A DNA stretch of 64,000 bases, from positions 1-64,000 of IMG/VR virus record IMGVR_UViG_3300038701_002504. One strand, written 5' to 3'. This DNA comes from a virus. The position numbers and the translations under genes were made by a program. This document shows, one piece after another, positions 1,711 through 57,133 of the stretch. The notes beneath the pieces were generated by a model, which saw only the letters and a list, made by a program, of their open reading frames with translations, did not search any database and was not told the origin of the DNA. The first letter of the stretch is position 1. The number at the start of each line of letters is the position of its first letter.

Positions 1711-2178
1711 ATGCAGCATCTTGACGTTGATAAAATCAAAGAATTGCTAAGTACACTAAATTCAGACACTAAGATTTATATGGGTTCAGACTCATATAGA
1801 TTTAAAGTAGATGGTCGTTGGAAGGCTCGTTATACAACCGTTGTTGTTATTCATATGAATGGTAAGAATGGTTGCCAGGTTTTTGGACGTATTGATACTG
1901 AAGATGATTACGATTCAAATAAGAAGCGTCCGAGTCTTCGTCTGATGAATGAAGTTTATCGCGTATCTCAGCTTTATCTTGATCTTGCTGATGTTCTTGA
2001 AAAATATGATGTAGAGGTACATTTGGATATTAATCCTAGTGAGAAGTATGGCTCAAGCTGTGTTATTAGTCAGGCTATGGGTTATGTAAAGGGTGTATGT
2101 AATATTACGCCAAAAGTAAAGCCTGATGCTTTCGCGGCATCATTCGCAGCTGACAGGTTTATCGCTTTCACAGACTAA
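1711..2178 (+). CDS. RNase H-like protein of the YkuK/DUF458 family
   Basis: 155-residue protein. KIYMGSDS near residue 22, VHLDIN near the middle and KPDAFAAS.AAD at the C-terminus match the YkuK-type ribonuclease H-like family, in which acidic residues of these motifs form the metal site. The start at 1711 (MQHLDVDK) is chosen because GGAGA at 1701-1705 is 5 bases upstream; the ATG at 1699 overlaps that ribosome-binding site. The gene follows a tRNA, so a role in RNA processing is conceivable but unproven. Known members have no firmly established substrate. Confidence 0.7.
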   Translation: MQHLDVDKIKELLSTLNSDTKIYMGSDSYRFKVDGRWKARYTTVVVIHMNGKNGCQVFGRIDTEDDYDSNKKRPSLRLMNEVYRVSQLYLDLADVLEKYDVEVHLDINPSEKYGSSCVISQAMGYVKGVCNITPKVKPDAFAASFAADRFIAFTD

Positions 2179-2226
2179 GCGATAAACCTTCAAATTTAAC
2201 AATGTAAAATTATGGAGAAATATAAT

Positions 2227-3138
2227 ATGAATAAGTCAGTATTTTTTGCTACTCTCGCTCTGGCAGCCTTTTCCACAATCGGAATGTCAAATGCAACGGA
2301 TATTAATGTTTGCACAGGCGGTTCAGGTGGTAATTATGAATACGCTGGAAAGCTCATGAAGAATCAGCTTTCTTCAACTGGAATTAATGTAAATGTAATT
2401 AACACCAAGGGTTCATGGGAAAACCTTGAAAAGATGGATAATGGTGAGTGTGATGCTGCTCTTGTTCAATCAGATGCTGTCTATGTTTATGAAAAAGAAA
2501 ATGGCCCTGTGAATGCATATTCTCTTGGAGATATGTTCACCGAGTACGTCCATCTTCTTTGCCGTAGGTCAGCAAATATTGAAGATATTGACGATCTAGA
2601 AACTTCGTCAAAGGTTTATGTTGGTCCAGTTGGATCAGGATCGAATGTATCATTTCGTGGCATGATTATGGCCGATAAAGAATTTGGAGGAGATGCTTAT
2701 TCTAAGATTCCTCTTATGAATGAAGGTGCTGATAAGTCTTCTCTCGTGAAGCTTAAGGGTGGATCCGCTGATTGTATGGTTTACACTGCAGCTCCAGGCA
2801 CAACCTTTATGACAAAGGAAGCTCAGAAGTTTGGAGATGATCTTGTTCTAGTTCCTGTTATCGATAAAGATTTCAATGATGTCACAAATACAGATGTGAA
2901 TGGTAATAAGACTTCAGTATGGCGTCCTGTAACAATGTCATATAAGACTTATAAGACAATTATGCCATCAGGTGTTTTCGGCCGCAAGGATGTTGATACA
3001 TTTGGAGTAAATGCGCAGTTTCTTGTATCTCAGAAATGGGAGAGTCAGAATTCAGACGCATTTGGTGAAGTTGGTTATTACCTAACAGATGTTCAGAATC
3101 AGCTTCGAGCAGATCGTAAGCTTGAGATCGTAAAGTGA
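2227..3138 (+). CDS. TAXI-family TRAP transporter solute-binding protein
   Basis: 303 residues with a clear N-terminal signal peptide (MNKS, a hydrophobic stretch, then GMSNA before the mature TDINVC). The mature part has the TAXI periplasmic-binding layout: TGGSGGNYEYAG near the start, a CDAALVQSD segment, and VYVGPVGSGSNVS in the middle. TAXI proteins bind small acids such as glutamate or 2-oxoacids and hand them to TRAP permease subunits in the inner membrane. No permease gene is nearby, so the protein would have to work with host transporters or serve another periplasmic role. The start is set by GGAGA 8 bases before ATG 2227. Length is close to that of bacterial family members, so it is not an obvious fragment. 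Confidence 0.85.
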   Translation: MNKSVFFATLALAAFSTIGMSNATDINVCTGGSGGNYEYAGKLMKNQLSSTGINVNVINTKGSWENLEKMDNGECDAALVQSDAVYVYEKENGPVNAYSLGDMFTEYVHLLCRRSANIEDIDDLETSSKVYVGPVGSGSNVSFRGMIMADKEFGGDAYSKIPLMNEGADKSSLVKLKGGSADCMVYTAAPGTTFMTKEAQKFGDDLVLVPVIDKDFNDVTNTDVNGNKTSVWRPVTMSYKTYKTIMPSGVFGRKDVDTFGVNAQFLVSQKWESQNSDAFGEVGYYLTDVQNQLRADRKLEIVK

Positions 3139-3140
3139 AC

Positions 3141-3311
3141 ATGGATGAAGTTAAATGGATAGACCTAAAGAATGCTTTTTTAGGTCTATCCGATAAACAA
3201 TGGAAAACTTTAGCTGAATCTGAAGAAGGCATCGACTTTATGCAAGAGGTTCTTTATTTGGAAGAAGATGATTTCTTTGGAACTGAAGGAATGAATAAAA
3301 GATTTTCTTAA
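3141..3311 (+). CDS. Small acidic hypothetical protein
   Basis: 56-residue ORF beginning MDEVKWIDLK two bases after the TAXI stop and ending TAA at 3309-3311. It is strongly acidic and soluble-looking (LSDKQWKTLAE in the centre, then an EEDD stretch). The spacing suggests coupling to the TAXI gene. Its codons 6-17 contain a perfect 13-bp inverted repeat. No family is recognised. Confidence 0.55.
   Translation: MDEVKWIDLKNAFLGLSDKQWKTLAESEEGIDFMQEVLYLEEDDFFGTEGMNKRFS
3157..3191 (+). repeat. Perfect 13-bp inverted repeat (stem-loop) inside a small CDS
   Basis: Arms 3157-3169 and 3179-3191 are exact reverse complements separated by 9 bases. No T-run follows the stem, so it is not a textbook terminator. 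It could be an RNA processing or stability element downstream of the TAXI gene. Confidence 0.6.
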
Positions 3312-3339
3312 TAGGTGTACTTTAAAAGGATGATATGTT

Positions 3340-3702
3340 ATGATTTTCGAAGAGATTAAGAAAGATTTTCTACAAGCTCGTAAAGACCGAATTTCAGATA
3401 AAGCTGCATTTTATTCATGGGCTATTGGTGAAATTCAGAATAATGCACCAACTAAAGAATATACTAATGAAGTTGTTCTTCCAATTCTAAAGAATATGCA
3501 TAAGAAACTATCTGAAATTAAGAACCATACGGAAGCTTCTATTATTGGAAAATATCTTCCAAAAATGTTAACCGAAGAAGAAATCCGCGAAATTTTTAAG
3601 ACTGTTGAGGGTGGTATGCCTGAAAAAATGGCTTATCTAAAAACTAATCATACAAATATGTATGACGGAAAATTAGCTTCACAAATTGCAAAGGAGACGT
3701 AA
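3340..3702 (+). CDS. GatB/YqeY-like protein
   Basis: 120-residue protein resembling the YqeY family: a helical N-terminus with KKDFLQARKDR and a central E..IIGKYLPKMLTEEEI segment, the most typical YqeY signature, followed by a Y-x-G-K-LAS-Q-A end. YqeY domains occur fused to GatB, where they help tRNA-dependent amidation, and standalone versions are common in phages without a proven role. Full-length YqeY is about 150 residues, so this copy is short. It sits in an operon with the next three small genes. Confidence 0.65.
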   Translation: MIFEEIKKDFLQARKDRISDKAAFYSWAIGEIQNNAPTKEYTNEVVLPILKNMHKKLSEIKNHTEASIIGKYLPKMLTEEEIREIFKTVEGGMPEKMAYLKTNHTNMYDGKLASQIAKET

Positions 3703-3894
3703 ATGGATAAGAGTGTTTTCGCTTTAAGAAAAGAAGATGAAACTTTATATTATAATGATTGGCTTGATGCATATGAGAATGGTCTATTTGAAATTGCTTG
3801 TATAGATGAAATCTATCTTGATTCAAATGGTGAACCAATTTATGAATATAAAGCTGGTATTACTGAATTTTCATATGGAGAAGTAAATGTATAA
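3703..3894 (+). CDS. Small acidic hypothetical protein
   Basis: 63 residues starting MDKSVFALRK immediately after the stop of the YqeY-like gene (TAA then ATG). Acidic and aromatic-rich with no membrane helix and no recognised domain. Its last codons overlap the start of the next gene by 8 bases, indicating translational coupling. Confidence 0.6.
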   Translation: MDKSVFALRKEDETLYYNDWLDAYENGLFEIACIDEIYLDSNGEPIYEYKAGITEFSYGEVNV

Positions 3895-4219
3895 AGTATT
3901 AGCAATTATGGTTCCAATTATCGGAATTCTAACAGTAGGTTTTCTAGGTGTTAATTATTACACGCCTGAAAATATCTCTCTTACAGTAAATGATGCTGTT
4001 CGAGAATGTAAGGGTACGACAAGTGAATGTCGATATGTCGTCTATACCTCTGAAGGTGTATTTGAAAATAAAGACACATTGATCTTTCTTAAGTTTAATA
4101 GCTCAGATTTACACAATCAACTTTTGGGTATGAAGGGTAAACAAACAAGCGTGAAAGCATATGGTTTACGAATTCCATTTCTTTCAACATATAAGAATAT
4201 TGTAGAGGTTGTTGAATGA
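3887..4219 (+). CDS. Membrane-anchored hypothetical protein
   Basis: 110 residues. One N-terminal transmembrane helix or uncleaved signal anchor (residues 4-24) is followed by a soluble, probably periplasmic domain containing a pair of cysteines (RECKGTTSECRY) that could form a disulfide. The later part has a GMKGK..SVKAYGLRIPFLSTY pattern seen in small envelope proteins of many phages and bacteria. Overlaps both neighbours by a few bases. Function unknown. Confidence 0.6.
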   Translation: MYKVLAIMVPIIGILTVGFLGVNYYTPENISLTVNDAVRECKGTTSECRYVVYTSEGVFENKDTLIFLKFNSSDLHNQLLGMKGKQTSVKAYGLRIPFLSTYKNIVEVVE

Positions 4220-4458
4220 GCGGTTGGGAATTAGAAAAAATATCTGAAGTTGAAGTAGATGAATATTACGTTCCTGATGATAGTGAAATTCAGAGTGAAG
4301 ATATTATTCTTGAATGGGAAGAATTTATGACTGCTGTTGACACGAATTTTCTTACTGACGAAGATGGATATGCTTTAGATGGAACTGTTAAAATTCTTCC
4401 ATCAGAAGCTTCATCAATGGTAAATCACCCAGAAAAAATTGTGTGGATTAATAAGTAA
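4216..4458 (+). CDS. Small acidic hypothetical protein
   Basis: 80 residues beginning MSGWELEKIS with a 4-base ATGA overlap with the membrane protein before it. Very acidic N-terminal half; ends KIVWINK. No recognised fold. It is the last coding gene of this small operon before a tRNA. Confidence 0.6.
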   Translation: MSGWELEKISEVEVDEYYVPDDSEIQSEDIILEWEEFMTAVDTNFLTDEDGYALDGTVKILPSEASSMVNHPEKIVWINK

Positions 4459-4464
4459 TAATTT

Positions 4465-4540
4465 GCGCGTGTGGCAGATAGGTAATGCAGGCGCCTCTAA
4501 AACGTTTCGAATGAGGGTTCAAATCCCTTCACGCGCACCA
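4465..4540 (+). tRNA. tRNA-like gene, predicted anticodon CTA (amber-reading)
   Basis: 76 bases. A perfect 7-bp acceptor stem pairs GCGCGTG (4465-4471) with CACGCGC (4530-4536), followed by A and encoded CCA. The T-arm is GAGGG-TTCAAAT-CCCTT, and a 3-bp D-stem GCA/TGC holds a GATAGGTAA loop. The anticodon stem is weak (two G-T pairs, C-G, G-C and a closing C-A mismatch), and the best register gives loop CTCTAAA with U33 and anticodon CTA, complementary to UAG. Other registers break more pairs. Several genes here end in TAG, so this would be a suppressor rather than a full recoding tRNA. Confidence 0.6.
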
Positions 4541-11586: not shown

Positions 11587-12059
11587 TTTTCAATCCTATT
11601 TTCACCGGTTTTGTTGAGGCTTTTATATGGACTTTGATTTTTGTGGCTCTTTTGGTATTATCATATAATGCAATTCCATATGTTGAAAATAAATTTTTTC
11701 CTGTTATAGATAAAAAAACATTTAAAGTTGATTATGTCTCTGAATTATCAGATGATATGGTGAATATTGATTTATCATTTAACAAATTACGTAAATGCGA
11801 TCCCATTTTAGAAAGATTTTCATGGTATTCTTCAGATGAAAATGAATATTTTGAGCGTGTTCATTTCACAATGCCTGAAACGGTTGGAGATCCATCACGT
11901 CCAGTTGGATTAAATATTTCAAAAGGATGGCATGTGAATTTGAGCGATAAATCAGGATTCGATAAAAAGCAAAAAGTTATTTTTTATCATGAATGCAATC
12001 CTTTTTGGGTAACAAGAACAGAGATTATTATACCAGATGCTAAAAATAGACGAAACTAA
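11583..12059 (+). CDS. Membrane-anchored hypothetical protein
   Basis: 158 residues with an N-terminal TM helix (about 9-29, AFIWTLIFVALLVLSY) and a soluble, probably periplasmic domain rich in aromatic residues (CDPILERFSWYSS, then FYHECNPFWVTRTEIIIP near the end). The two cysteines could pair. Translationally coupled to the coiled-coil gene before it. Not recognised beyond topology. Confidence 0.5.
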   Translation: MIFNPIFTGFVEAFIWTLIFVALLVLSYNAIPYVENKFFPVIDKKTFKVDYVSELSDDMVNIDLSFNKLRKCDPILERFSWYSSDENEYFERVHFTMPETVGDPSRPVGLNISKGWHVNLSDKSGFDKKQKVIFYHECNPFWVTRTEIIIPDAKNRRN

Positions 12060-12420
12060 TTTTCTTTTATTCGCTGCAAAAAATTATGAAAATGTCTATT
12101 ATGACACGACAGAATTTTACGATGATTTGAAGCGATTTACTTATATTAAAAGACTTTTTAATCAATATGAAACTCGTGGCGATATCAAAGTAAATCTCAT
12201 ATTGAATCACATTATCATTCTATATAACGTCTTTGGTCCCCGAACAACAGAAATGCTTTTTCTTAAACTTGAAGGACAGGAATCTATGTTGAAAACATTC
12301 CTGGTTTATCTACAGAGAATGCCTGACCGTATCACAAATTTAGGTGTTAAATGTCGCATTATAAATAATGATGAGATACCAATTAATCATCAAATAATGG
12401 CAGAACTGGAAAAATTGTGA
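12037..12420 (+). CDS. Conserved T4-superfamily phage protein of unknown function
   Basis: 127 residues starting MLKIDETNFL, overlapping the previous gene by 23 bases. The pattern FAAKNY...TEFYDDLKRFTYIKRLF (about 13-40) and LILNHIIILYNVFG (about 54-67) is familiar from small proteins near structural genes in many T4-like and marine myoviruses, where it has no assigned role. Mostly helical. A GTGA overlap leads into the kinase-like gene. Confidence 0.6.
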   Translation: MLKIDETNFLLFAAKNYENVYYDTTEFYDDLKRFTYIKRLFNQYETRGDIKVNLILNHIIILYNVFGPRTTEMLFLKLEGQESMLKTFLVYLQRMPDRITNLGVKCRIINNDEIPINHQIMAELEKL

Positions 12421-13070
12421 TAAATTTTAAATCCTATTTAGCAGAATTAAACAAACCATTTGAATTGCGTAAATTCAAATCTGCTGTTGCTGACGTAAAA
12501 GATGTTGATACTCGCGATCCATCATGGCAGGGCACTTTACCTGAATTATTCTCTAAATATGGATTTGTTAATGTTGGCGACGGAAAATATGGAACTGTTT
12601 TTGTAAATTCAAAGTATCCATATGCAGTGAAAGTGTTTATGAAAGACACCGCATATTTAAAATTCATTCAGTTTGTGCTCAAGAATCAATCAAATCCATA
12701 TGTGCCGAAGATTCGTGGTAAAGTTGTAAAAATCAATGATATGTTTATGGCAATTCGTATGGAAAAATTATCTCCATCACATACGATTGGAAAAGATATA
12801 GCTCTTAAAGAATTTGTAGAAATGATACAAGATCCTGAGTATTTTTTACAGGGCAAATTAAATTTGATCACTATACATAATGAAGATAAGCATGCTATTA
12901 ATTTATGCAAGTTTTTATTAGCAAATGAAAATCTATTGGATATTCATTTGGGAAATATCATGATGAGAAGAAATCAACCAGTGTTGATCGACCCATTATA
13001 TAACTGGTATAAGGGTGCCCAATTCACAATGGATCCAAACGATATTTCAAATCTAAAAGATGTGTTTTAA
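12417..13070 (+). CDS. Protein-kinase-like protein with capsid-targeting-like N-terminus
   Basis: 217 residues with a GTG start at 12417 (GTGA overlap with the previous stop). The N-terminus INFKSYLAE matches the T4 capsid-targeting pattern and offers an L-A-E cleavage site at residue 10. Downstream are kinase-like elements in order: glycine-rich loop GDGKYGTVF (54-62), AVKVF with K72, a catalytic-loop-like DIHLGNIMM (D175, H177, N180) and VLIDP (D192) as the DFG equivalent. The fold is small for a kinase. If active, it would phosphorylate host proteins; if packaged, from the moment of injection. Both points are inference; the motif order is directly visible. Confidence 0.6.
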   Translation: MINFKSYLAELNKPFELRKFKSAVADVKDVDTRDPSWQGTLPELFSKYGFVNVGDGKYGTVFVNSKYPYAVKVFMKDTAYLKFIQFVLKNQSNPYVPKIRGKVVKINDMFMAIRMEKLSPSHTIGKDIALKEFVEMIQDPEYFLQGKLNLITIHNEDKHAINLCKFLLANENLLDIHLGNIMMRRNQPVLIDPLYNWYKGAQFTMDPNDISNLKDVF

Positions 13071-13558
13071 TGATTTCGTTTAAAGACTATCTTAAAGAAA
13101 ATCTTCTTCCCAAAAAATATATAGCTGTATATTTTACAGAAGAGACGAATAAAAAATTATATAATTATGCAATATCACAGAATTTTGATATATCATACAA
13201 TTGGGATAGAATAAAAATAGATCCAAAAAAATTCAAATTTCATTGTACGCTTTTTTATTCTAAAAATAGAATGGACATTGAGAATATAACTTATAAAGTG
13301 CCGCCTTTAAAAAGTAAAGTATTAGGATTAAGAGTTTTCGGTAATAAAAAAGATGTTTTGGTTCTAAGATTAGATAATGCATTCGGCGAATTAAGAAAAA
13401 AATATTTAGACATGGGTTTGAAAGACACTTTTCCTAAATGGCGTCCACATGTATCTGTTTCTTATAAATATGATAATAAAGAAGATATAGCAAGCGTAGC
13501 AAATTTACCAGATTTTGAACTGGTAGCTTCACATGTTACCATTGAGGATCATAAATGA
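13070..13558 (+). CDS. 2H phosphoesterase (Acb1-like) with capsid-targeting-like N-terminus
   Basis: 162 residues starting ISFKDYLKE (L-K-E at 8-10). Two H-x-T/S motifs define the 2H fold: FHCTLFYS with H58 and T60, and RPHVSVSY with H127 and S129. Length and motif contexts (H-x-T-x-x-Y-S and P-H-V/I-x-x-S-Y) resemble T4 Acb1 (gp57B), which degrades cyclic nucleotides made by CBASS defence; other 2H enzymes act on RNA 2',3'-cyclic ends. The gene overlaps the kinase-like gene in a TAATG junction. A packaged anti-CBASS enzyme is a hypothesis; the 2H assignment is solid. Confidence 0.7.
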   Translation: MISFKDYLKENLLPKKYIAVYFTEETNKKLYNYAISQNFDISYNWDRIKIDPKKFKFHCTLFYSKNRMDIENITYKVPPLKSKVLGLRVFGNKKDVLVLRLDNAFGELRKKYLDMGLKDTFPKWRPHVSVSYKYDNKEDIASVANLPDFELVASHVTIEDHK

Positions 13559-14058
13559 TAGTTGATATTTACCTTTTATATTCATTTGTTAGAAGACTTG
13601 TAACACCATTTAATAAATGGAAAGCTTATGATGATGGAACAATTGATGAGAATGGAAATATTCTAATTCCTAGAAAAGATCTTTCTGGTAATGCGAAAAA
13701 TAATTTTGGTCTATTTGACTTGCTTATCTTAAATTTGAAGAAACTTCTAGCCAAATTGCCAGGCGGATCAACTAAGATTGCCACATTTGGCGCGGCATTG
13801 TTTCTCATTAAAGAAGAGAAAAATATCACAGAAGATAATATTGAAGAAATTATTAACAGAATTCCGACTCTTTTAGAATCTCATATACGCGAAGCTAAAT
13901 TACTCGTTGAAGATGGAGCTCCTGCTGGTATTGTTGGTGGTGGAACAACTCCAATCACATCAAATAGCGTAGGAAATATTGCTCGAAAGAACGACAAATC
14001 TACTCTTCTTTTCAAAAAAACTGTAAAGAGAAAGAAGAAAAAAGATGAAGAGCTTTAA
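13555..14058 (+). CDS. Conserved phage protein of unknown function
   Basis: 167 residues. The N-terminus LLYSFVRRLVTPFNKWKAYDDG (about 6-27) is a recognisable signature of a T4-superfamily protein encoded near head genes. A helical middle follows, then an alanine/glycine-rich segment and a lysine-rich tail ending KRKKKKDEEL. It lacks the F-K-x-F/Y-L-x-E start of its neighbours although it lies between two genes that have it. A virion or assembly role is plausible from context. Confidence 0.5.
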   Translation: MIVDIYLLYSFVRRLVTPFNKWKAYDDGTIDENGNILIPRKDLSGNAKNNFGLFDLLILNLKKLLAKLPGGSTKIATFGAALFLIKEEKNITEDNIEEIINRIPTLLESHIREAKLLVEDGAPAGIVGGGTTPITSNSVGNIARKNDKSTLLFKKTVKRKKKKDEEL

Positions 14059-14641
14059 AGATTATCTTATAGAAGGTCGCGATGCTCCATTATATCATGG
14101 AACCGATTTTCATAGCGCAGCTCTTATTATTCAAACAAATAAAATGAAAGCTACAAACAGACATTACGATGGAAAAGGTAATGCTGTATCTATGACTAGA
14201 AATATGAAATATGCTTTTAGGTTTCCACTATGGGCTGGCGATGCTTATGATGACAATGATGTAGTAGTATTTGAATTAGATCAAAGAAAACTTGCACAAA
14301 GATATAAAATAGTTTCATTTGCATTTGATATTGGTACAGGAAGATCTATGGCAAGAGGGCCGAATGAAATGAGTGAATTTGAAGAAAGAGTGTACTCAAA
14401 CATCGCGAATATTAACAATTTTATAACAAAAATATATGTAAAAGATTTTAAAGCTATGAAGAAAGACTTAGAAAGACAGGCTCCGGACGGTTATATACCT
14501 TTATTAAATAATTGGAAATTATATGATCTTAAAACAAACAAATTCGTCAACAGTGTTAGCAAAAAATCTAACGATAAATTAACAGCATTAAAGATAAAAA
14601 ATAAGAAACTTGACCATGCTATGTCATGGGAATTAGGTTAA
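14045..14641 (+). CDS. ART-like protein with capsid-targeting-like N-terminus
   Basis: 198 residues, the same family as the nine-gene array at 38.8-44 kb but located 24 kb away next to the kinase-like and 2H genes. N-terminus KSFKDYLIEG (L-I-E before G), then LYHGT (Y17, H18, G19, T20), VSMTRN, FELDQRKLAQRYKI, and EFEERV as candidate catalytic glutamate. This order fits the ADP-ribosyltransferase fold (H ... S/T ... E). It starts inside the previous gene and ends just before the primase promoter. Target unknown. Confidence 0.65.
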   Translation: MKSFKDYLIEGRDAPLYHGTDFHSAALIIQTNKMKATNRHYDGKGNAVSMTRNMKYAFRFPLWAGDAYDDNDVVVFELDQRKLAQRYKIVSFAFDIGTGRSMARGPNEMSEFEERVYSNIANINNFITKIYVKDFKAMKKDLERQAPDGYIPLLNNWKLYDLKTNKFVNSVSKKSNDKLTALKIKNKKLDHAMSWELG

Positions 14642-19509: not shown

Positions 19510-21009
19510 ATGATTAATTTTAAAGAATTTTTAAATGAGCATATTGTAGTAGGGGATTTGAAAAAGTCTCCTACTGATTTGTATTATGTATCTCCAGGGA
19601 GGGATGACAAGTCAAAATTGTTCATCTATCCAAAAATCAAAGATATGCAATATGATTTTAAAATGGTATATACTGAAAAAGGTTTCGATGTCATTGATGA
19701 AGCTATATCTCTATGGGACAAGACAGAAAAATATCCATACCCAGAATTAAAAAAGATATTGATGTCAAAATCAAAAGAGATTATGCAAAATACATATCTA
19801 AAAGCTGAGGAAATTTTAGATAAGAATTTGGTGTTAGAAATTGAAAAACAGTTTAATAAACCCGAAAACATTCAACGCGCTATGGAAAGTCTGAGTTCAA
19901 GTATAACATATTCAGGATTTCTGAATAATTATGATTCATACAGAGATTATGCGAAGAAAAACACAAATTCTTATGGTAGAATAATCGTAACATTACAGTC
20001 AATATATAAAATTATCGTTAATACAAACACAAAATCTATATATCCTGAATCAAACCCTATTCAACTTGCTTCAAGAATTGGAAAAATAGGATACGATGGC
20101 CAAAGCAAACAGACGTATATTATTCCTATGTCTGAGGTTTCTATTGATTCTCCCAGAGAAATATATAAAATACTTCAATCATTGGTAAAAAAATATCCAG
20201 AATTAGCCAATTATTCATATATTGATGCTATGTCCAGATCACAAGAAAGAACTTTAATCAAAGATGTTCTTGATGGCGCAGGCGAAGTTGGCAAAATGAA
20301 CACTTCATATAATAACATGTTTTCTCGAAGAAATTCTATCACAGTCTATCATGGAACATCTGAAAAAATTTATAATGATTATATTAAAAATAGCGGATTA
20401 CAACCTGATAAAGGACACCATTATAGCGACAAAATTATGGGACATTCTGATAAAAATGTATATTTCACAGCAAATATAGGTGATGCTCGAAAATATGCAG
20501 TAAGAGCTTCTGGTGCAAGCTCTAGATCAATGGTTCTTGAAGTTAAAATTACTGATTTCGATAAAATCACATTTGATGAAGATAATATGTATGGCGCACT
20601 GAGAAGAATACCTGAAAAAATTATGAAAGAAATAAAAGTTAGATTTTACAATCTCTATCTTCAGAATGATACAATATGGCCATTTGAACACACAAAAGAA
20701 CATGTTGCAGACGTTGGTTTAGATCAAACAGAAATTTCTATTCATAGCTTAAAATACAATCTAGAAAAAAATCCTGGTAATATGAAATTGATAAAACCAC
20801 TATTAGATTTCATTGGATATTATGCTGTGAAAGGCTCAACATTTACTTTCGCATATAATGGAATTATCTCTCCACGCGATATTAAAGTGAAAGAGACATT
20901 TAAATCAAAAGCATATAAAGATTCTGGCGGAGAGGCGGGCGACTGGGAAACAAAGAATTTCAAAAAGAAATATTCAGGGATTTTGAAAAGTTTCAAATCA
21001 GGAAAATAA
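19510..21009 (+). CDS. Large ART-domain protein with capsid-targeting-like N-terminus (Alt analogue?)
   Basis: 499 residues. N-terminus INFKEFLNE (L-N-E at 8-10, followed by H). The first 270 residues are helical and unassigned. An ART-like domain starts at TVYHGTSEKIY (Y280, H281, G282, T283) and continues with VYFTANIGDARKYA (Y318), the H...Y pattern of PARP/diphtheria-toxin-type ADP-ribosyltransferases; the final glutamate cannot be placed confidently. In size and layout it parallels T4 Alt, a packaged ADP-ribosyltransferase trimmed by the head protease, but the sequence signature differs. A late box lies upstream. Confidence 0.6.
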   Translation: MINFKEFLNEHIVVGDLKKSPTDLYYVSPGRDDKSKLFIYPKIKDMQYDFKMVYTEKGFDVIDEAISLWDKTEKYPYPELKKILMSKSKEIMQNTYLKAEEILDKNLVLEIEKQFNKPENIQRAMESLSSSITYSGFLNNYDSYRDYAKKNTNSYGRIIVTLQSIYKIIVNTNTKSIYPESNPIQLASRIGKIGYDGQSKQTYIIPMSEVSIDSPREIYKILQSLVKKYPELANYSYIDAMSRSQERTLIKDVLDGAGEVGKMNTSYNNMFSRRNSITVYHGTSEKIYNDYIKNSGLQPDKGHHYSDKIMGHSDKNVYFTANIGDARKYAVRASGASSRSMVLEVKITDFDKITFDEDNMYGALRRIPEKIMKEIKVRFYNLYLQNDTIWPFEHTKEHVADVGLDQTEISIHSLKYNLEKNPGNMKLIKPLLDFIGYYAVKGSTFTFAYNGIISPRDIKVKETFKSKAYKDSGGEAGDWETKNFKKKYSGILKSFKSGK

Positions 21010-38729: not shown

Positions 38730-38737
38730 TATAAATA
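38730..38737 (+). promoter_or_regulatory. Late promoter box (plus strand)
   Basis: Exact TATAAATA 35 bases before the first gene of the ART-like array. It faces the minus-strand box at 38755; the two transcription units overlap at their starts. Confidence 0.65.
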
Positions 38738-38771: not shown

Positions 38772-39398
38772 ATGAACAGTTTTAAACAATTTCTCGAAGA
38801 AGGTAGAGATGCTCCTTTATATCATGGGACTGATACTCATGCTGCAATTCAAATCATTGATGCCGATACACTCGAAGGAAGAACCGACAACCATTCAAGA
38901 CTCGAGCCTTTAAATTCATGGGGCGAAAAGAAAAAAGAGTTAGTTGTAAATGTGAATCATTTCAAACCAAAAAAATATACAAAATTTAACGGTTCGTCTT
39001 TTTCTCGCGATATGAGGAGATCATTGCATTGGAGAGGCGGAGGACTGTGTTTTGAAGTAGATCAGAGAAAACTATCTCAAAGACATAAGTTAGTTCCTAT
39101 CAACATCTTTATGGCTATGGGTTATAATAAACATGCGAAGGACGAAGAACTTGCAGAAGAATTTGTGATTGGAGATATTAAAAACTTTAGACGATATATA
39201 ACAAGAATCATATTTCTAAAAGAATGGGATTTATCCACATTTTTATTAAATGCTCAATTCTCTTTAAACCCAGACAAACTTCTGGGTTTCAGATATTTTC
39301 TATATTCAGAAAAGAAAACATATGATGTAAAATCGAAAAAGGATTTTATTAATATGTTGAAAGATTTGAAAATTTATGAAAAGATTATGAATGGCTAA
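38772..39398 (+). CDS. ART-like array gene 1 with capsid-targeting-like N-terminus
   Basis: 208 residues, the longest in the array. NSFKQFLEEG (L-E-E before G) then LYHGT (Y17, H18, G19, T20). The second motif reads SSFSRD rather than SLTR, so the central residue differs, followed by FEVDQRKLSQRHKLV and LAEEFVIGDIKN. The first 30 residues after the H motif contain a long insertion rich in charged residues. Driven by the late box at 38730. Overlaps gp4 by 8 bases. Confidence 0.65.
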   Translation: MNSFKQFLEEGRDAPLYHGTDTHAAIQIIDADTLEGRTDNHSRLEPLNSWGEKKKELVVNVNHFKPKKYTKFNGSSFSRDMRRSLHWRGGGLCFEVDQRKLSQRHKLVPINIFMAMGYNKHAKDEELAEEFVIGDIKNFRRYITRIIFLKEWDLSTFLLNAQFSLNPDKLLGFRYFLYSEKKTYDVKSKKDFINMLKDLKIYEKIMNG

Positions 39399-39843
39399 GT
39401 ATAAACAAGGCGTCTTCAAACCGCTTAGACCAGAAAAATATAAGGGAGACCTTAAGAAGAACCCACCGGTGTATCGCTCAAGCTGGGAATTAAAGCTTAT
39501 GGTCAAATTGGACAATCACCCTGACGTGATCCAGTGGTCATCAGAAGGTATCGTAATTCCCTATAAGTCTCCAATCGATAATAAGTATCATAGATATTTT
39601 GTGGATTTCTATGTTAAGTTAAAAGATAAAGATGGAAATATACAGGAAATGATTATTGAAGTTAAACCATTGGGCCAAGTTATGGAACCAAAAAGAAGAA
39701 AGAATCAACAGGATAGAACTTTTCTACGTGAAGTAATGACCTGGGGAGTGAACCAAGCAAAATGGGATGCTGCTCGCGCTGCTGCAAAAAATAAAGGATG
39801 GAAATTTGAAATATTCACAGAGGATGATCTTAATGTCCTTTAA
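39391..39843 (+). CDS. 4: Head completion protein (T4 gp4-like)
   Basis: 150 residues, matching T4 gp4 (150). YRSSWELKLMVKLDNHP (about 28-44), VIPYKSPIDNKYHRYFVDFYV (about 55-75) and IIEVKP (about 87-92) form the TnsA-like nuclease-type fold (E..., D...E-V-K). In T4, gp4 completes DNA-filled heads with gp2. It has no capsid-targeting N-terminus and sits between array genes 1 and 2, in the T4 position next to gp2 and gp53. Confidence 0.85.
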   Translation: MAKYKQGVFKPLRPEKYKGDLKKNPPVYRSSWELKLMVKLDNHPDVIQWSSEGIVIPYKSPIDNKYHRYFVDFYVKLKDKDGNIQEMIIEVKPLGQVMEPKRRKNQQDRTFLREVMTWGVNQAKWDAARAAAKNKGWKFEIFTEDDLNVL

Positions 39844-40363
39844 ACAATTCCTAGAAGAAGGTAGAGATGCTCCTTTATATCATGTTACTCCATTGGATAA
39901 CTTTTTTGATATAGCTATGTCAAATAGACTAAATGCAAGTAATTTATGGACATATGGAGCTAAACCCACAGTATCATTTACTCGTAATTATAAATTTTGT
40001 TTCGAATTTGCCAGACAACATCTGGATACTGGAACAGGCCAATTGAGAGATACGAAAGATATCGCAATACTTGAAATCGATCAAAGAAGACTTTCACAGA
40101 GATATAAGATTATTCCTTATAGAGATTTAATTAATTTGGGTGATGGATCAAGACTACATTATAATGAATTTGAAGAATATATTCAGGGAGATGTGAAGAA
40201 TGTAAGCGACTATATTATAAAAACTCATATACCCGCAAGAGAATATTGGCATTCAAACGATGTTGCGTTATCGTATAAAAAGAAATACAGGAGATTTATA
40301 TCATTAGTAATGGACTTTAAACCCTGGGATACTAAATCAAGAAAGTTTATTGATGCCATATAG
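39833..40363 (+). CDS. ART-like array gene 2 with capsid-targeting-like N-terminus
   Basis: 176 residues from ATG 39833 inside the gp4 end; stop TAG. MSFKQFLEEG then LYHVT (Y16, H17, V18, T19): the glycine after the histidine is replaced by valine. Motif two is VSFTRN, motif three EIDQRRLSQRYKIIP, and the glutamate block is EFEEYIQGDVKN. A distinctive aromatic tail (REYWHS, then RRFISLVMDF) separates it from its relatives. Confidence 0.65.
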   Translation: MSFKQFLEEGRDAPLYHVTPLDNFFDIAMSNRLNASNLWTYGAKPTVSFTRNYKFCFEFARQHLDTGTGQLRDTKDIAILEIDQRRLSQRYKIIPYRDLINLGDGSRLHYNEFEEYIQGDVKNVSDYIIKTHIPAREYWHSNDVALSYKKKYRRFISLVMDFKPWDTKSRKFIDAI

Positions 40364-40862
40364 TTTCAAACAATTTCTTGAAGAGGGACGAGACGCTCCG
40401 TTATATCATAGCACTGCTTATCGTTCAGGTTGTATCATCTTTGAAGATAATGAAATACGCGCGAGAACATATCATATCAAAAAGTCCATGTTAGATGATA
40501 AAGCAAAAATAAAAAAAGCGTTCTCCAAGCGTGTTTTTGGTGGCTCTGATGAATATGTTGATGGTGTTGCAGGTGTTTCACTAACTCGTAATTTTAAGTT
40601 TGCAAAATCCTGGGGTGATATAATATTTGAAGTAGATCAGAAAAGATTAACTCAAAGATATAAGATTATTCCATTTAACTATTTTGTTGACCAGAGCAGT
40701 AAACCCGCAAATTTTAGAAAAGAAGCAGAAGAATTTGTAATTGGCAACATATTTCCTTTAAATAAATATCTTATAAAAATACATATAAGCGTTGATTATA
40801 TGTCTGAATTTGAAGAACGATATGGAAATAAACTTAAAGGAATTGAAGTTGTTGGGGTTTAA
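40353..40862 (+). CDS. ART-like array gene 3 with capsid-targeting-like N-terminus
   Basis: 169 residues from ATG 40353 (an in-frame TTG at 40350 is less likely). MPYSFKQFLEEG has two extra residues before the motif. LYHST (Y18, H19), GVSLTRN, FEVDQKRLTQRYKIIP and EAEEFVIGNI. Between motifs it has a lysine-rich insertion (KKSMLDDKAKIKKAF). Its 3' end overlaps the TTG start proposed for gene 4. Confidence 0.62.
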   Translation: MPYSFKQFLEEGRDAPLYHSTAYRSGCIIFEDNEIRARTYHIKKSMLDDKAKIKKAFSKRVFGGSDEYVDGVAGVSLTRNFKFAKSWGDIIFEVDQKRLTQRYKIIPFNYFVDQSSKPANFRKEAEEFVIGNIFPLNKYLIKIHISVDYMSEFEERYGNKLKGIEVVGV

Positions 40863-41355
40863 AGAATATTTATTAGAAGGACGAGATGCTCCTTTGTTTC
40901 ATGGTTCGTCATCAGGCAATGTAAACAACATGCTTGAAGAGAATATGATATCCTCGGAAACACTCCAGAAGATTGACGGAAAAAACCTAAAAGGTGTATC
41001 TCTTACAAGATCATATAAATTTGCATTAACTCATATTGGTCCAGCTTCATTTAAGCATGGCTATGACGTAATACTTGAATTAGATCAAAGACTTCTTTCT
41101 CAGAACTATAAGATTATTCCTTTTAATTGGTCTCCATCGTGGAAAGGCCCGCCTAAAGCAAGATATATGGATGATCTAGGTTCAGAGTTTGAAGAATTTG
41201 TGGTCGGTCCTATTCGTAATTTGAATAAGTATATTGTTAAAATACACGCATCACACGAAATCTATTATAATGCTTCACAGGAAACAAAAGATAGATCTTC
41301 ATTTTTATTGAAACATCCTAAACTCTTTATTGATAGAAAGTTTGTCAATGCTTAA
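40849..41355 (+). CDS. ART-like array gene 4 (probable TTG start)
   Basis: About 168 residues. No ATG precedes GFKEYLLEG closely; the nearest (40822) lies deep in gene 3 and would add 9 residues. A TTG at 40849, 8 bases after AAAGG (40836-40840), gives a start that aligns with the paralogues. Motif one is LFHGS, with F replacing the usual Y and S replacing T. GVSLTRS, LELDQRLLSQNYKIIP and EFEEFVVGPI follow. The cleavage-like site is L-L-E before G. Confidence 0.58.
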   Translation: MLGFKEYLLEGRDAPLFHGSSSGNVNNMLEENMISSETLQKIDGKNLKGVSLTRSYKFALTHIGPASFKHGYDVILELDQRLLSQNYKIIPFNWSPSWKGPPKARYMDDLGSEFEEFVVGPIRNLNKYIVKIHASHEIYYNASQETKDRSSFLLKHPKLFIDRKFVNA

Positions 41356-41884
41356 TTTCAAACAATACTTGGAAGAAGGTAGAGATGCTCCTTTATATCA
41401 TGCAACTGAGTACAGAGCTCTTTTGAATATTCTTATAACGAATAAATTGGAAGCCCTGAATTATCATGAGTTTAATAGTAAAATAAAAAAGAAACATAGA
41501 AATTCCTGGGGTGATGTGAAGATTATATCATTTACACGAAACATAAGATTTGCTAGAGCTTGGTTAAATCAATTAATGGGTTATGGACCTATACTTGAAC
41601 TAGATCAGAGAAAACTTGCGCAGAGATATAAATTTGTTCCATTTAACTTTTTTTCCTATGGTGCTAGAGTCGACACCGATGAACTTGGTATAGACTATGA
41701 TGGCGATTATGGTATGAATTTCCCATATAATCAATTTGAGGAAAATGTGATAGGTGATATTAAGAACCTCGATAAATATTTAACTAAAATAATAGTTGTA
41801 GATGATAGATGGAAATCCGATAAAATAATATCGTCACATCCTCTTTTATATGATCTAAAAACGAAAAGGTTTATCAATGCTTAA
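41348..41884 (+). CDS. ART-like array gene 5 with capsid-targeting-like N-terminus
   Basis: 178 residues from ATG 41348, in the shared AATGCTTAATTT junction with gene 4. LNFKQYLEEG then LYHAT (A for G). Motif two ISFTRN, motif three LELDQRKLAQRYKFVP, glutamate block QFEENVIGDIKN. A glycine/aspartate-rich loop (DYDGDYGMNFPYN) precedes the glutamates. Ends RFINA, the common C-terminal form. Confidence 0.65.
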   Translation: MLNFKQYLEEGRDAPLYHATEYRALLNILITNKLEALNYHEFNSKIKKKHRNSWGDVKIISFTRNIRFARAWLNQLMGYGPILELDQRKLAQRYKFVPFNFFSYGARVDTDELGIDYDGDYGMNFPYNQFEENVIGDIKNLDKYLTKIIVVDDRWKSDKIISSHPLLYDLKTKRFINA

Positions 41885-42383
41885 TTTTAAACAATTCCTA
41901 GAAGAAGGTAGAGATGCTCCTTTATATCACGGGACTGATGCAACACTTAAAATTCTTGAGACAAATACATTGAAAGGTACACGCAGCCATTCATATCAGA
42001 GCCTGATGATTGATAAGGATGGAGAAGCAAAAGGAGTTTCTCTTACAAGAAACATAAAAGTAGCTTCACAGTTTCAAAAATGGGCTGATCACAGCAATTA
42101 TGCAATCTTTGAGTTGGATCAGAAGAAACTTGCTCAGAATCATAAAATCATTCCTGTAAACTTCTGGGGAGCTCTGAAAGGTGAGCCCGCAAGATCAAAA
42201 TCAATTCCAAAAGATGAAGTGGGTTCTGAATATGAAGAATTTGTGATGGGTGATATTAAGAACCTCGATAAATATATCATAAGAATATTCATTTTTAGTA
42301 AGAAGAGTAAGTTGTATGGAAAGCCGAATGTTCTTCTTGTAAAGAAGAACGATCTCATACTTGGAAAGCATAGAAGAAGATGA
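41877..42383 (+). CDS. ART-like array gene 6 with capsid-targeting-like N-terminus
   Basis: 168 residues. LNFKQFLEEG, LYHGT, GVSLTRN, FELDQKKLAQNHKIIP and EYEEFVMGDIKN, the most complete match to the family consensus. The tail is basic and ends GKHRRR instead of the usual FINA, and the junction to gene 7 is a 4-base ATGA overlap, so this end differs from the other cassettes. Confidence 0.65.
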   Translation: MLNFKQFLEEGRDAPLYHGTDATLKILETNTLKGTRSHSYQSLMIDKDGEAKGVSLTRNIKVASQFQKWADHSNYAIFELDQKKLAQNHKIIPVNFWGALKGEPARSKSIPKDEVGSEYEEFVMGDIKNLDKYIIRIFIFSKKSKLYGKPNVLLVKKNDLILGKHRRR

Positions 42384-42937
42384 ACAGTTTTAAGCAATAT
42401 TTGGAAGAAGGTCGAGCTGGGCCTCTGTATCATGCTACGAATGTCGATAGAGCTTCGTTTATTGTGGGTGATAATAAAATAATGGCTAAAACGATACATA
42501 AGTTAAAGCCAGATTATAGAACAATAAATGGTGTTTCTCTTACACGCGATTATAAATTTGCGATACATTTCGGTTTTCATGAAATGAGATATTTTACTCT
42601 TGTTATATTTGAACTTGATCAAGCAAAACTTTCTCAAAAATTTAAAATAATGCCAATCAATTATTATAACACAACATTTCCAATAGAACAAGGGTTTAGA
42701 CCATATAAAGGTGCTAGAAGATCTCAAGGTCGTCACCTGCTGGGTGATGAGAACAATGAATCGGAAGAGTTTGTGCTAGGTAATATAAAAGATGTATCAA
42801 AATATATTGTAAAAATTCATGTATGTTCTGACTTAACAAAGGAAAGAATAGATGAACATTATCCAAGACTGGCGAAACATCCTAAACTTTGGTTTGCTGA
42901 AAAGAATAACGAAAAAGGTTATTTCTACAATGCTTAA
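42380..42937 (+). CDS. ART-like array gene 7 with capsid-targeting-like N-terminus
   Basis: 185 residues. NSFKQYLEEGRAGPLYHAT: the RDAP of the paralogues is RAGP here. GVSLTRD, FELDQAKLSQKFKIMP and SEEFVLGNIKD follow. A basic insertion (YKGARRSQGRH) lies before the glutamates. Ends GYFYNA at the shared AATGCTTAATTT junction. Confidence 0.63.
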   Translation: MNSFKQYLEEGRAGPLYHATNVDRASFIVGDNKIMAKTIHKLKPDYRTINGVSLTRDYKFAIHFGFHEMRYFTLVIFELDQAKLSQKFKIMPINYYNTTFPIEQGFRPYKGARRSQGRHLLGDENNESEEFVLGNIKDVSKYIVKIHVCSDLTKERIDEHYPRLAKHPKLWFAEKNNEKGYFYNA

Positions 42938-43517
42938 TTTCAAACAATACTTGGAAGAAGGACGAGATGCTCCACTTTATCATACTACAGATGAATCTTA
43001 TATGCGCTACATCATCGAAAAAAATTCAATAAAAGCGAAAACAGAACATCAAGTTGGTTATAGACCTGGTAATAGATCAGGTAATAAATGGAAAGATGTG
43101 ATATCTCTTACACGTTCTATAAAATTTGCTCATCGTTGGGGAGAAAGAAAAGGTTCTGGTTATTATTTTATATTTGAACTAGATCAGAGAAAACTTTCTC
43201 AGAGACATAAATTTGTTCCCTATAACCATTTTGGCGATCATTATTATAATGACGAAAAAGGTGCAGCTCGTAGAATGAATGATGTTACTGATTTTAATTT
43301 TCCTATTAATCAATATGAGGAGAATATTATTGGAGATATCAAAAATTTAAATCAATATTTAACTAAAATAATATTATCCGAAAAATTATATAATGGATAT
43401 TTTTCAGAAAAAAATTCAGATAGACAAGATGCAGTTATTAAATATGGAAAAGAAGTAGTGTATCATAAACTGTTATGGTATAATGGAAAATTCATCAATG
43501 CTCATTATTATAAGTAG
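42930..43517 (+). CDS. ART-like array gene 8 with capsid-targeting-like N-terminus
   Basis: 195 residues from ATG 42930; stop TAG. LNFKQYLEEG, LYHTT, ISLTRS, FELDQRKLSQRHKFVP and QYEENIIGDIKN. Closest to gene 5: the first 33 bases of the two genes are nearly identical, and both have NFP-type residues ahead of QxEEN. The tail carries an extra helical region (ARRMND, then SEKNSDRQDAVIK). Confidence 0.65.
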   Translation: MLNFKQYLEEGRDAPLYHTTDESYMRYIIEKNSIKAKTEHQVGYRPGNRSGNKWKDVISLTRSIKFAHRWGERKGSGYYFIFELDQRKLSQRHKFVPYNHFGDHYYNDEKGAARRMNDVTDFNFPINQYEENIIGDIKNLNQYLTKIILSEKLYNGYFSEKNSDRQDAVIKYGKEVVYHKLLWYNGKFINAHYYK

Positions 43518-43523
43518 GAATCA

Positions 43524-43988
43524 ATGAATAACTTTAAACAATTCTTAGAAGAAGGTCGCGATGCTCCTTTATATCATGGAACATATGCTGAAGCAGCTGA
43601 TGAAATTATAAAAGATAACACTATGATAGCCTATACAAATCACGGAAGAAAAGTAACTTCATTTTCTTATTATTCAAAAAATTTTAGAGGTAAAGTTGAG
43701 CAGGATGGCATATCTCTTACGCGTGATATTCGCTTTGCATGGTCGTGGAATGGACAAGTAGTATTTGAACTTGACCAAAGAAAGCTTGCGCAAACTCATA
43801 AGATTGTTCCCATTAAGATAGAAGGTGTTTTAAGAGGAAAAAATCGAAATGCTTTTATGCATATGGCAGAAGAATTTGTAATCGGACCTATTAAAAACTT
43901 TGATAAATACTTAATAAGAATTCATTTAAAAAAAGAATGGACTTATCCAGAATCTTTATTAAAACATCCTCTAATTAAGTGGCATTAA
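43524..43988 (+). CDS. ART-like array gene 9 with capsid-targeting-like N-terminus
   Basis: 154 residues, the shortest. NNFKQFLEEG, LYHGT, GISLTRD, FELDQRKLAQTHKIVP and MAEEFVIGPIKN. It lacks the C-terminal FINA block, ending LIKWH where the gp2 gene begins (TAATG), so its tail may have been trimmed by the array boundary. Separated from gene 8 by 6 bases, the only array junction without overlap. Confidence 0.63.
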   Translation: MNNFKQFLEEGRDAPLYHGTYAEAADEIIKDNTMIAYTNHGRKVTSFSYYSKNFRGKVEQDGISLTRDIRFAWSWNGQVVFELDQRKLAQTHKIVPIKIEGVLRGKNRNAFMHMAEEFVIGPIKNFDKYLIRIHLKKEWTYPESLLKHPLIKWH

Positions 43989-44599
43989 TGACATCATTAC
44001 TCTTTACAAAAGTATTAGAAAAAGCAGCAAGATCAGGAAACCCGAAATTCGGATCTGTTGAATTGCGAGATTTCCTGCGTGATAAAGCTTTGGCAGCTAC
44101 ATCTCGTAATGTGAGCAGTAAAAGATTCGTTGAGACAAAGAAAGCAAAAGCAAATGTAGTCACAACAATCAAACCTGGAACAATGGTTTGTTATTTCTAT
44201 GATGCGAAACATAAAGCTACATTACCATATTATGATAAATTTCCAGTTGGATTTGTTATTGATGTTCAAAAAGATTATAATTTATTCTTAAATCTGCATT
44301 ACTTACCGCCGATTTTTAGAGCTAGATTAATGGATGCATTATACGATTTATTAAATAATCAAAAATATGACGACACTACAAAGCTTAAAATGTCATATGA
44401 CATTTTAAGAAGTGCTGCTAAATTTAAATATTTTAAACCGTGTATAAAAAAACATTTACATAATCGAATACAAAGTCATATGATTCAAATAGATGTAAGA
44501 GAGTGGGATTATGTGGCATTTTTACCTTTAAATCGTTTTTCTGGTGCAAATCAAAGAAAAGTGTGGGATGACTCAATTAAGATCATTAATAAGTCTTGA
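43988..44599 (+). CDS. 2: DNA end protector protein (T4 gp2-like)
   Basis: 203 residues from ATG 43988 (a GTG at 43979 is less likely). TMVCYFYDAKHKATLPYYDKFP (about 64-85) and LNLHYLPPIFRARLMDALYDL (about 101-121) are hallmarks of the gp2 family, which caps packaged DNA ends against RecBCD and completes heads. Position next to gp4 and before gp53 mirrors T4 gene order. Overlaps the convergent endonuclease by 27 bases at the 3' end. Confidence 0.75.
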   Translation: MTSLLFTKVLEKAARSGNPKFGSVELRDFLRDKALAATSRNVSSKRFVETKKAKANVVTTIKPGTMVCYFYDAKHKATLPYYDKFPVGFVIDVQKDYNLFLNLHYLPPIFRARLMDALYDLLNNQKYDDTTKLKMSYDILRSAAKFKYFKPCIKKHLHNRIQSHMIQIDVREWDYVAFLPLNRFSGANQRKVWDDSIKIINKS

Positions 44600-56309: not shown

Positions 56310-56696
56310 ATGAGACAAGTAATATACAGAGACCTTAAAAAGTCATTCGACAAACATCCTGTGAGTAATGATCTTCTCACAATATCCGAAGAGGATGCTG
56401 TAAAAGACTCTATTATGAATATTGTCTTCACATCTCCGTATGAGAGATATCGTAATCCAAGATTTGGCGCAGGAATTCCTGCTGATTTGTTTGAAAATTT
56501 GAGCCCACAGACCGAATACCAAGTAAAGAACCGTATTGAGAATGCAATTAATACATACGAGCCACGTGCTATTCTTCAGAATGTTGCTGTTGCAGCAAAT
56601 CTAGATCAGAATAATTATGTTGTGAGTATTCAATTCCGCGTGAGAAACAGTTTTGAAATTATTACTGTACAGAATATTCTAAGGAGAATACGATGA
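56310..56696 (+). CDS. 25: Baseplate wedge protein (T4 gp25-like)
   Basis: 128 residues (T4 gp25 is 132). IVFTSPYERYRNPRFGAGIPADLFE (about 38-62) and RIENAINTYEPRAIL (about 74-88) are diagnostic of the gp25/lysozyme-like wedge family (also TssE). gp25 with gp6 and gp53 forms the core of the wedge. Overlaps the next gene by 4 bases. Confidence 0.92.
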   Translation: MRQVIYRDLKKSFDKHPVSNDLLTISEEDAVKDSIMNIVFTSPYERYRNPRFGAGIPADLFENLSPQTEYQVKNRIENAINTYEPRAILQNVAVAANLDQNNYVVSIQFRVRNSFEIITVQNILRRIR

Positions 56697-57133
56697 CATT
56701 TAAAGAGTATCTAACAGAGCTATTCGACAGACCTGCCAAAATCTATACACTTGCTGATAATTTGACGGACAGGGAAGCCATATTCACTGTTGGAAATAAC
56801 AAGTACAGTATATATTTAAGTAAGGAACCCATCAGAAAAATCGTATGGAACGTAACATTTGCTATTATAGAAATAGATGGTATGCCTGTGGGTGGTATAG
56901 ATAGCATTAAAACAACAAATCTGAATGTTGATAAAAATGTTGTATTCGCAACAGTAATTAAGTTTATTGAGTCACATCACAGAAAAGAAGATACATATAA
57001 ATTTACCACATGGAAGATTGAAAAGTCGCGCATTAGACTTTATGATACATTATCCAAAAGATTGGCAAAAAAATATAATATGAAAGTAGAGAAATCAGTA
57101 TTTGGAAATGTTATTGAATGGCAATTGTCATAA
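56693..57133 (+). CDS. Hypothetical protein with capsid-targeting-like N-terminus
   Basis: 146 residues starting TFKEYLTELF (L-T-E at 7-9, followed by L). The remainder is beta-rich in the first half (KYSIYLSKEPIRKIVWNVTFAIIEID) and ends in a basic helical part. No enzyme motif is visible. It lies between gp25 and gp6, in a place that varies between T4-like phages. The cleavage-site residue after E is L rather than G, so processing is less certain than in the array. Confidence 0.5.
   Translation: MTFKEYLTELFDRPAKIYTLADNLTDREAIFTVGNNKYSIYLSKEPIRKIVWNVTFAIIEIDGMPVGGIDSIKTTNLNVDKNVVFATVIKFIESHHRKEDTYKFTTWKIEKSRIRLYDTLSKRLAKKYNMKVEKSVFGNVIEWQLS

Follow-up and report, generated by a model that had tools for sequence, protein, structure and literature searches.

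A gp0.7-type kinase with a T4-like capsid-targeting peptide is a candidate head-loaded effector of a T4-like phage

The window analysed here, the first 64,000 bases of the 109,508-base virus record IMGVR_UViG_3300038701_002504 (G000), contains an open reading frame (ORF) whose product resembles a protein kinase placed behind a phage T4-like capsid-targeting sequence. This raises the question of whether a kinase could be loaded into a phage head and enter the host together with the phage DNA, as the initial annotation of the locus had proposed. We think, with good confidence, that the ORF encodes a minimal gp0.7-type kinase loaded into the head of a T4-like phage as an internal effector. The ORF was found exactly as annotated, with the following parts:

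12417..13070, plus strand: gp0.7-family protein kinase, 217 residues, GTG start (PHROG, hhalign, model, Foldseek, VIA)
12417..12446, plus strand: capsid-targeting-like peptide MINFKSYLAE (F4, Y7, L8, E10) in the T4 IPII/IPIII register, with a predicted gp21 cut after E10 and low model confidence at residues 1-14
12417..12420, plus strand: GTGA start/stop overlap with the upstream gene 12037-12420 (DUF7207)
12576..12593, plus strand: P-loop GDGKYG, residues 54-59, from the alignment of related domains
12630..12632, plus strand: catalytic lysine K72, invariant in 19 of 19 domains
12939..12956, plus strand: catalytic loop DIHLGN (D175, N180), from the same alignment
12990..12992, plus strand: metal-binding D192 of VLIDP, invariant in 19 of 19 domains

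The motifs on which the annotation rested (GDGKYGTVF, AVKVF, DIHLGNIMM and VLIDP) are present in the kinase order it gave, and relatives keep the catalytic residues: in an alignment of 19 related kinase domains, G56, K72, N180 and D192 are invariant and D175 is nearly so. The protein matches phrog_15752, the T7 gp0.7 kinase family, with an E value of 3.5e-10, as do all 19 aligned relatives (best 8.7e-16), and profile-profile comparison of the window kinase family with T7 gp0.7 by hhalign gave a probability of 98.4 (E 7e-15, 212 columns). Pfam returned no family for the window kinase at E<=1, nor in a second scan at E<=0.1; Kinase-PolyVal (PF18762) did not match it at E<=1 and matched one of the 19 relatives at 0.0035, and a search of Protein Data Bank (PDB) sequences with the kinase alignment gave nothing at E<=1.

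Structure prediction, proposed as a check in the annotation, gave a kinase fold that matched protein kinases and aminoglycoside phosphotransferases (APH). The AlphaFold2 model has a predicted local distance difference test score (pLDDT) of 83.2, falling below 50 only at residues 1-14, and a predicted template modelling score of 0.81. Foldseek against the PDB returned 45 matches at E<=0.001, 44 of them kinase-fold by entry title (the remaining one, row 41, is a sperm-axoneme chain), with protein kinases and APH enzymes including APH(2'')-Ia ranking high, and VIA aligned the model with TTK/MPS1 over 130 residues (Z 9.0, root-mean-square deviation (rmsd) 3.3), ending at TTK residue 672. The high rank of APH(2'')-Ia, together with weak matches to Pfam APH in 2 of the 19 relatives (best 0.0015) and a chain that ends about 25 residues past D192, so that most of the C-lobe is missing, would suit a pseudokinase or a small-molecule, APH-like kinase in place of a protein kinase. 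As all catalytic residues are retained, and as profiles place the T7 protein kinase, which has a similar catalytic end, closest among characterised relatives, we give this explanation very little credence. The C-terminal host-shutoff domain of gp0.7 and JSS1_004 is absent from the window kinase (217 residues against 359 in T7), so that, judged by its sequence, it is a gp0.7-family member by its kinase domain and not a full-length gp0.7. Taken together, PHROG, hhalign and the kinase-fold model bear out the kinase identity, and the family and fold of this ORF appear well supported by sequence profiles and model alike.

The N-terminus of the kinase, MINFKSYLAE, can be placed in register with MKTYQEFIAE of the T4 internal proteins IPII and IPIII, sharing aromatic residues at positions 4 and 7, I or L at position 8 and E at position 10. 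In T4 IPIII, the first ten residues are sufficient for packaging, residues 4 and 7 governing targeting and residues 8 and 10 processing, and gp21 cleaves after L/I-x-E (PMC9026906). This pattern stands at the start of 19 of the 144 ORFs of at least 80 residues in the 109.5-kb record, with a mean of 0.35 and a maximum of 3 in 1000 shuffles; 12 of the 19 are one duplicated family resembling ADP-ribosyltransferases (ART), and 2 of the other 7 are small and possibly not genes. Tagged starts in the window include those of the kinase (MINFKSYLAE), an Acb1-like protein (MISFKDYLKE) and an ART-like protein (MKSFKDYLIE). The tag is common to the kinase and unrelated neighbours, and its reading as a capsid-targeting sequence is supported by this pattern. 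The record also encodes a gp21-type prohead protease (Peptidase_S77, PF03420, E 2.8e-39) at 89368-89808, and its T4-type head module (L003) comprises portal, S77 prohead protease, scaffold and major capsid protein, of which portal, scaffold and capsid protein were named by sequence and gene order; the capsid protein and its counterpart in Rhizobium phage RHph_I1_18 share 66% identity. The capsid-targeting-like N-terminus claimed by the annotation is upheld by the T4 register, the protease in the record and the family-wide site described below. Of its suggestion that the GTG start and GTGA overlap indicate controlled translation, the start and overlap are real; such an overlap is ordinary in phages and we found no sign of special control.

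A cleavage-type site recurs across the kinase family. Three scans of viral contigs with alignments gave 15, 8 and 26 loci on partly shared contigs. Alignments were needed, as a single-sequence kinase scan of viral contigs detected no relative; the polyprotein-type kinase alignment run on bacterial and archaeal genome contigs gave 46 pattern matches and 0 confirmed relatives, and the 19-row kinase alignment was too diverse for scanning. In alignment A2, 10 of the 19 rows had been trimmed at LxE, and the invariance of E and L in it was set aside because of this circularity; a core-only profile, without the N-terminus, was used instead. With this profile, [ILV]xE was found 25-57 residues before the core in all 45 kinase domains, which are related and not independent (33 clusters at 50% identity, 9 at 40%), while shuffles of the upstream regions gave a mean of 19.9 and a maximum of 30 of 45 in 2000 trials. 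More specifically, P3 is L or I in 43 of the domains and the residue after E is L in 38. The count takes identical ORF ends once and drops matches starting beyond profile position 12 (e.g., L028, L035 and L036), which are broken or partial copies. It includes 37 domains labelled first in their ORF, two of which (the first kinase of L013 and the L005 fusion) lie behind other domains, and 8 internal ones. When only the first possible start codon was considered, M.{1,8}[ILV].E was found in 30 of 37 kinase ORFs versus 111 of 646 other ORFs. Tandem kinase genes occur in several records, for instance three each in L026, L034 and L037 and two in L023.

Some relatives are polyproteins in which this site recurs. 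In L011/L012 (5958-9707), one ORF of 1,249 residues consists of six tandem gp0.7-type kinase domains, each preceded by (I/L)xEL(I/T)GYK. L013 has a 1,936-residue polyprotein in which four kinases are joined to an Acb1 domain (PF23474, E 3.1e-24) and to repeats of DUF6934; each unit boundary carries LNE, LVE, LTE or INE. The first part of this polyprotein looks GNAT-like by eye only, with no match in Pfam. An MPTase domain was not seen in what was covered of these polyproteins, which were not scanned whole: the six kinases fill L011, and stretches 2045-4309 and 5396-5854 of L013 matched only DUF6934 and 2H in Pfam. The kinds of cargo joined in L013 (kinase, Acb1, DUF6934-like) are separate tagged genes in the window's phage. 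RHph_I1_18 (MN988519), which encodes an S77 protease as well, has a fusion protein (EVB91_001) whose kinase domain comes after a homologue (38% identity) of the protein encoded at 13555-14058 of the window, with SFKEVVKE|S between the two; this fusion is followed by a second kinase (EVB91_002, MKSFSEHIAE) and by a protein (MISFKSHLNE) called ART-like by eye from its LYRG motif, without a Pfam match. In record G007 (181 kb), several genes at L018:7851-8972 and in its neighbourhood start with MR(V/A)xEFIxE and are further cargo candidates, and a kinase of this record is fused to another C-terminal domain that has no Pfam match.

Other tagged genes of the window, with the conserved protein that lies among them, are:

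13070..13558, plus strand: Acb1-like 2H phosphodiesterase (anti-CBASS), tag MISFKDYLKE; PF23474 match and histidine motifs
13555..14058, plus strand: conserved protein (phrog_18642/phrog_2086); in Rhizobium phage RHph_I1_18 its homologue forms a fusion with a kinase domain
14045..14641, plus strand: ART-like protein, tag MKSFKDYLIE, Tpt1/DarT-like fold
19510..21009, plus strand: 499-residue protein, tag MINFKEFLNE, with a weak PARP-like match (PF00644, E 0.01, below cut-off)
38772..43988, plus strand: array of nine more ART-like paralogues, all tagged and lying head to tail, with the DNA end protector gene (43979-44599) at its end
56693..57133, plus strand: DUF6934-like protein, tag MTFKEYLTE (PF22028, E 2e-4, below cut-off)

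The protein at 13070-13558, a putative antagonist of cyclic-oligonucleotide-based antiphage signalling (CBASS), matches PF23474 with an E value of 2.8e-11 (43.8 bits, cut-off 27), and both its histidine motifs, FHCTLFY and RPHVSVSY, align to solved Acb1 (9q2g/7t26). Acb1 genes with a T4-type capsid-targeting start occur in three phage records (13070-13558; L117:810-1256; L119:456-968), which suggests, from their sequences, a head-loaded anti-CBASS function; the start in G021 is MKTFKEYLKE. The Acb1 of T4 itself (57B, MMEFKDFSTG) was considered as a tag carrier and rejected, the N-terminus being variable among 31 loci and without LxE. In the T4 relatives L086, L092, L102 and L106, internal-protein genes (MKTYQEFIxE) adjoin the Acb1 gene 57B.

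Two more ART-like paralogues lie outside the window (G000 77689-78246 and 78648-79160), in the late region, immediately ahead of a terminase-like gene, so that the phage has 12 diverged paralogues of one tagged ART-like family. The ART-like model matched DarT (7.9e-5) and Tpt1 (5.0e-4) in Foldseek, and VIA aligned it with Tpt1 (Z 10.3, 95 aligned, rmsd 2.5) and DarT (Z 9.6, 146 aligned, rmsd 3.9). None of the 12 paralogues has a significant match to a curated ART family, the best being PARP at 0.0056 and DarT at 0.03 in one member each. The ART part is the least new part of the cargo set, because ARTs in phage heads have been argued for earlier (PMC9503650). Across the LxE site, the start of the DUF6934-like protein, MTFKEYLTELFD, lines up with LNELFD in the polyprotein repeat of L013. 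Among 14 searched records, which were picked for carrying the kinase, kinases occur in 14, the ART family in 4 and Acb1 in 5. In one of the relatives, G009 (147 kb), a 9.5-kb stretch with baseplate and tail genes contains two kinases and four ART-like genes, and the DNA end protector is followed by a tagged Acb1 (METFKEFITE). At 4465-4540 of the window, ARAGORN predicted a tRNA that it calls tRNA-Pyl; the anticodon is CUA, and the tRNA may be an amber suppressor of this T4-like phage.

This company of genes bears on where the kinase would act. The tag should put the kinase in the prohead core, and RHph_I1_18 has a kinase domain joined to a homologue of the conserved neighbour protein. One could imagine a packaged kinase whose substrates are within the prohead (scaffold or DNA-binding head proteins, for instance) instead of in the host. 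We regard this as quite improbable, given that the kinases have diverged in tandem genes and polyproteins, as expected for effectors of many targets, and that they keep company with Acb1 and ART-like enzymes, host-directed by precedent (PMC9503650). By analogy, the kinase probably targets host proteins and perhaps defence proteins; JSS1_004 phosphorylates DndFGH, CasD, HerA and QatABCD, according to PMC12345140.

The packaging, cleavage, ejection, activity and targets of the kinase are inferred. Its first ten residues would bind the prohead core, like the T4 capsid-targeting sequence, and the gp21 homologue would cut after E10 (LAE|LNKP), leaving the freed kinase in the DNA-filled head, to be ejected along with the genome. 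Delivery with phage DNA, as first proposed for this locus, stays an inference, and the ejected kinase would phosphorylate host proteins ahead of phage transcription, most likely disarming defences and/or dampening host functions as T7 gp0.7 and JSS1_004 do. The kinase would be one of a set of tagged cargo that includes Acb1, about 12 ART-like enzymes and a DUF6934-like protein.

Several observations weigh against loading of the kinase into the head. T7 gp0.7 is an early gene and its product is not known to be packaged. Many relatives start with M(K/R)(I/L)xEL, too short for aromatics at positions 4 and 7, so that their targeting would need another signal, and the invariant E and L could be partly structural. 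The Acb1 of the close relative L009 keeps FKEYL and is without the E10 site. Of 23 records, 7 yielded the S77 protease; the rest are mostly fragments, but one record of 158 kb had no match. The gene neighbours of the window kinase include replication genes (primase, ribonucleotide reductase) and not head genes. Two weak boxes of the sequence TATAAATA, which we take to be a T4-type late-promoter-like motif, precede tagged genes:

12360..12367, plus strand: TATAAATA, 57 nt before the kinase start
38730..38737, plus strand: TATAAATA, 42 nt before the first ART of the array

These boxes are near chance in the window (15 versus 10.0 expected, 15 being reached in 5 of 100 shuffles), and we rejected them as proof of late promoters on account of this frequency.

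The gp0.7-type kinase could instead be made early like that of T7, and left unpackaged, its N-terminus only resembling a targeting sequence; T7 gp0.7 and JSS1_004 are both early gene products, and the window gene lies near replication genes. This would leave unexplained the exact T4 register that the kinase shares with unrelated neighbours (19 of 144 ORFs against 0.35 expected), the presence of [ILV]xE in 45 of 45 kinase domains, internal polyprotein boundaries included, and the position of the G009 kinases among baseplate and tail genes. We therefore consider an early, unpackaged kinase unlikely and keep to the head-loaded effector.

How does such an effector compare with known systems? To the Ser/Thr/Tyr kinases T7 gp0.7 and JSS1_004, the window kinase is homologous at profile level throughout the kinase domain, with the DMHSGNIM and TDP motifs inside the aligned region, and protein-kinase chemistry is expected; unlike T7 gp0.7, it lacks the C-terminal shutoff domain and has a T4-type targeting peptide and cleavage site. 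Its group is found in T4-like records, whereas PMC12345140 describes JSS1_004-type kinases as almost exclusive to Autographiviridae. As in T4 IPI-III and Alt, there is a ten-residue N-terminal peptide (positions 4, 7, 8 and 10), an encoded gp21-type protease and the logic of an injected effector (PMC9026906); the cargo (kinase, Acb1, Tpt1/DarT-like ARTs, DUF6934) includes none of the T4 internal proteins. The window Acb1 resembles T4 57B in exceeding the PF23474 cut-off and in having both histidine motifs, and differs from it, with its variable N-terminus and no LxE, in being tagged in the window, G009 and G021. Polyvalent proteins (Kinase-PolyVal, ART, 2H, GNAT) are likewise multi-effector polypeptides, presumed to be injected with DNA, and their kinase also has no C-terminal subdomain, as described in PMC5512222; in contrast to them, the kinases here are of the gp0.7 group and not PF18762, and the units are parted by prohead-protease-type (I/L)xE sites, not freed by an MPTase domain of their own.

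Titles and abstract starts in the open-access literature searched mention neither a gp0.7-type kinase packaged in the head, as part of the T4 internal-protein system, nor a tagged Acb1, and polyproteins of effectors parted by sites of the prohead-protease type did not turn up there either. We lean slightly towards a wider reading, in which the prohead protease of this T4-like lineage would be a general maturation enzyme of virion-borne effectors (gp0.7-group kinases, Acb1, ART-like and DUF6934 proteins), encoded either singly, each with its tag, or in polyproteins that place a gp21-type site before every unit, so that phosphorylation and CBASS blockade would start from DNA entry, before phage transcription.

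In conclusion, if this is true, a pre-loaded form would exist of Acb1 and also of gp0.7-type kinases, which in T7-like phages are known as disarming enzymes expressed early, and a defence acting on incoming DNA or on first transcription would find its antagonist already inside the cell. The polyproteins suggest that the capsid-maturation protease may process effectors as well. The combination of tag and (I/L)xE site may offer a simple sequence rule for predicting virion-delivered effectors.
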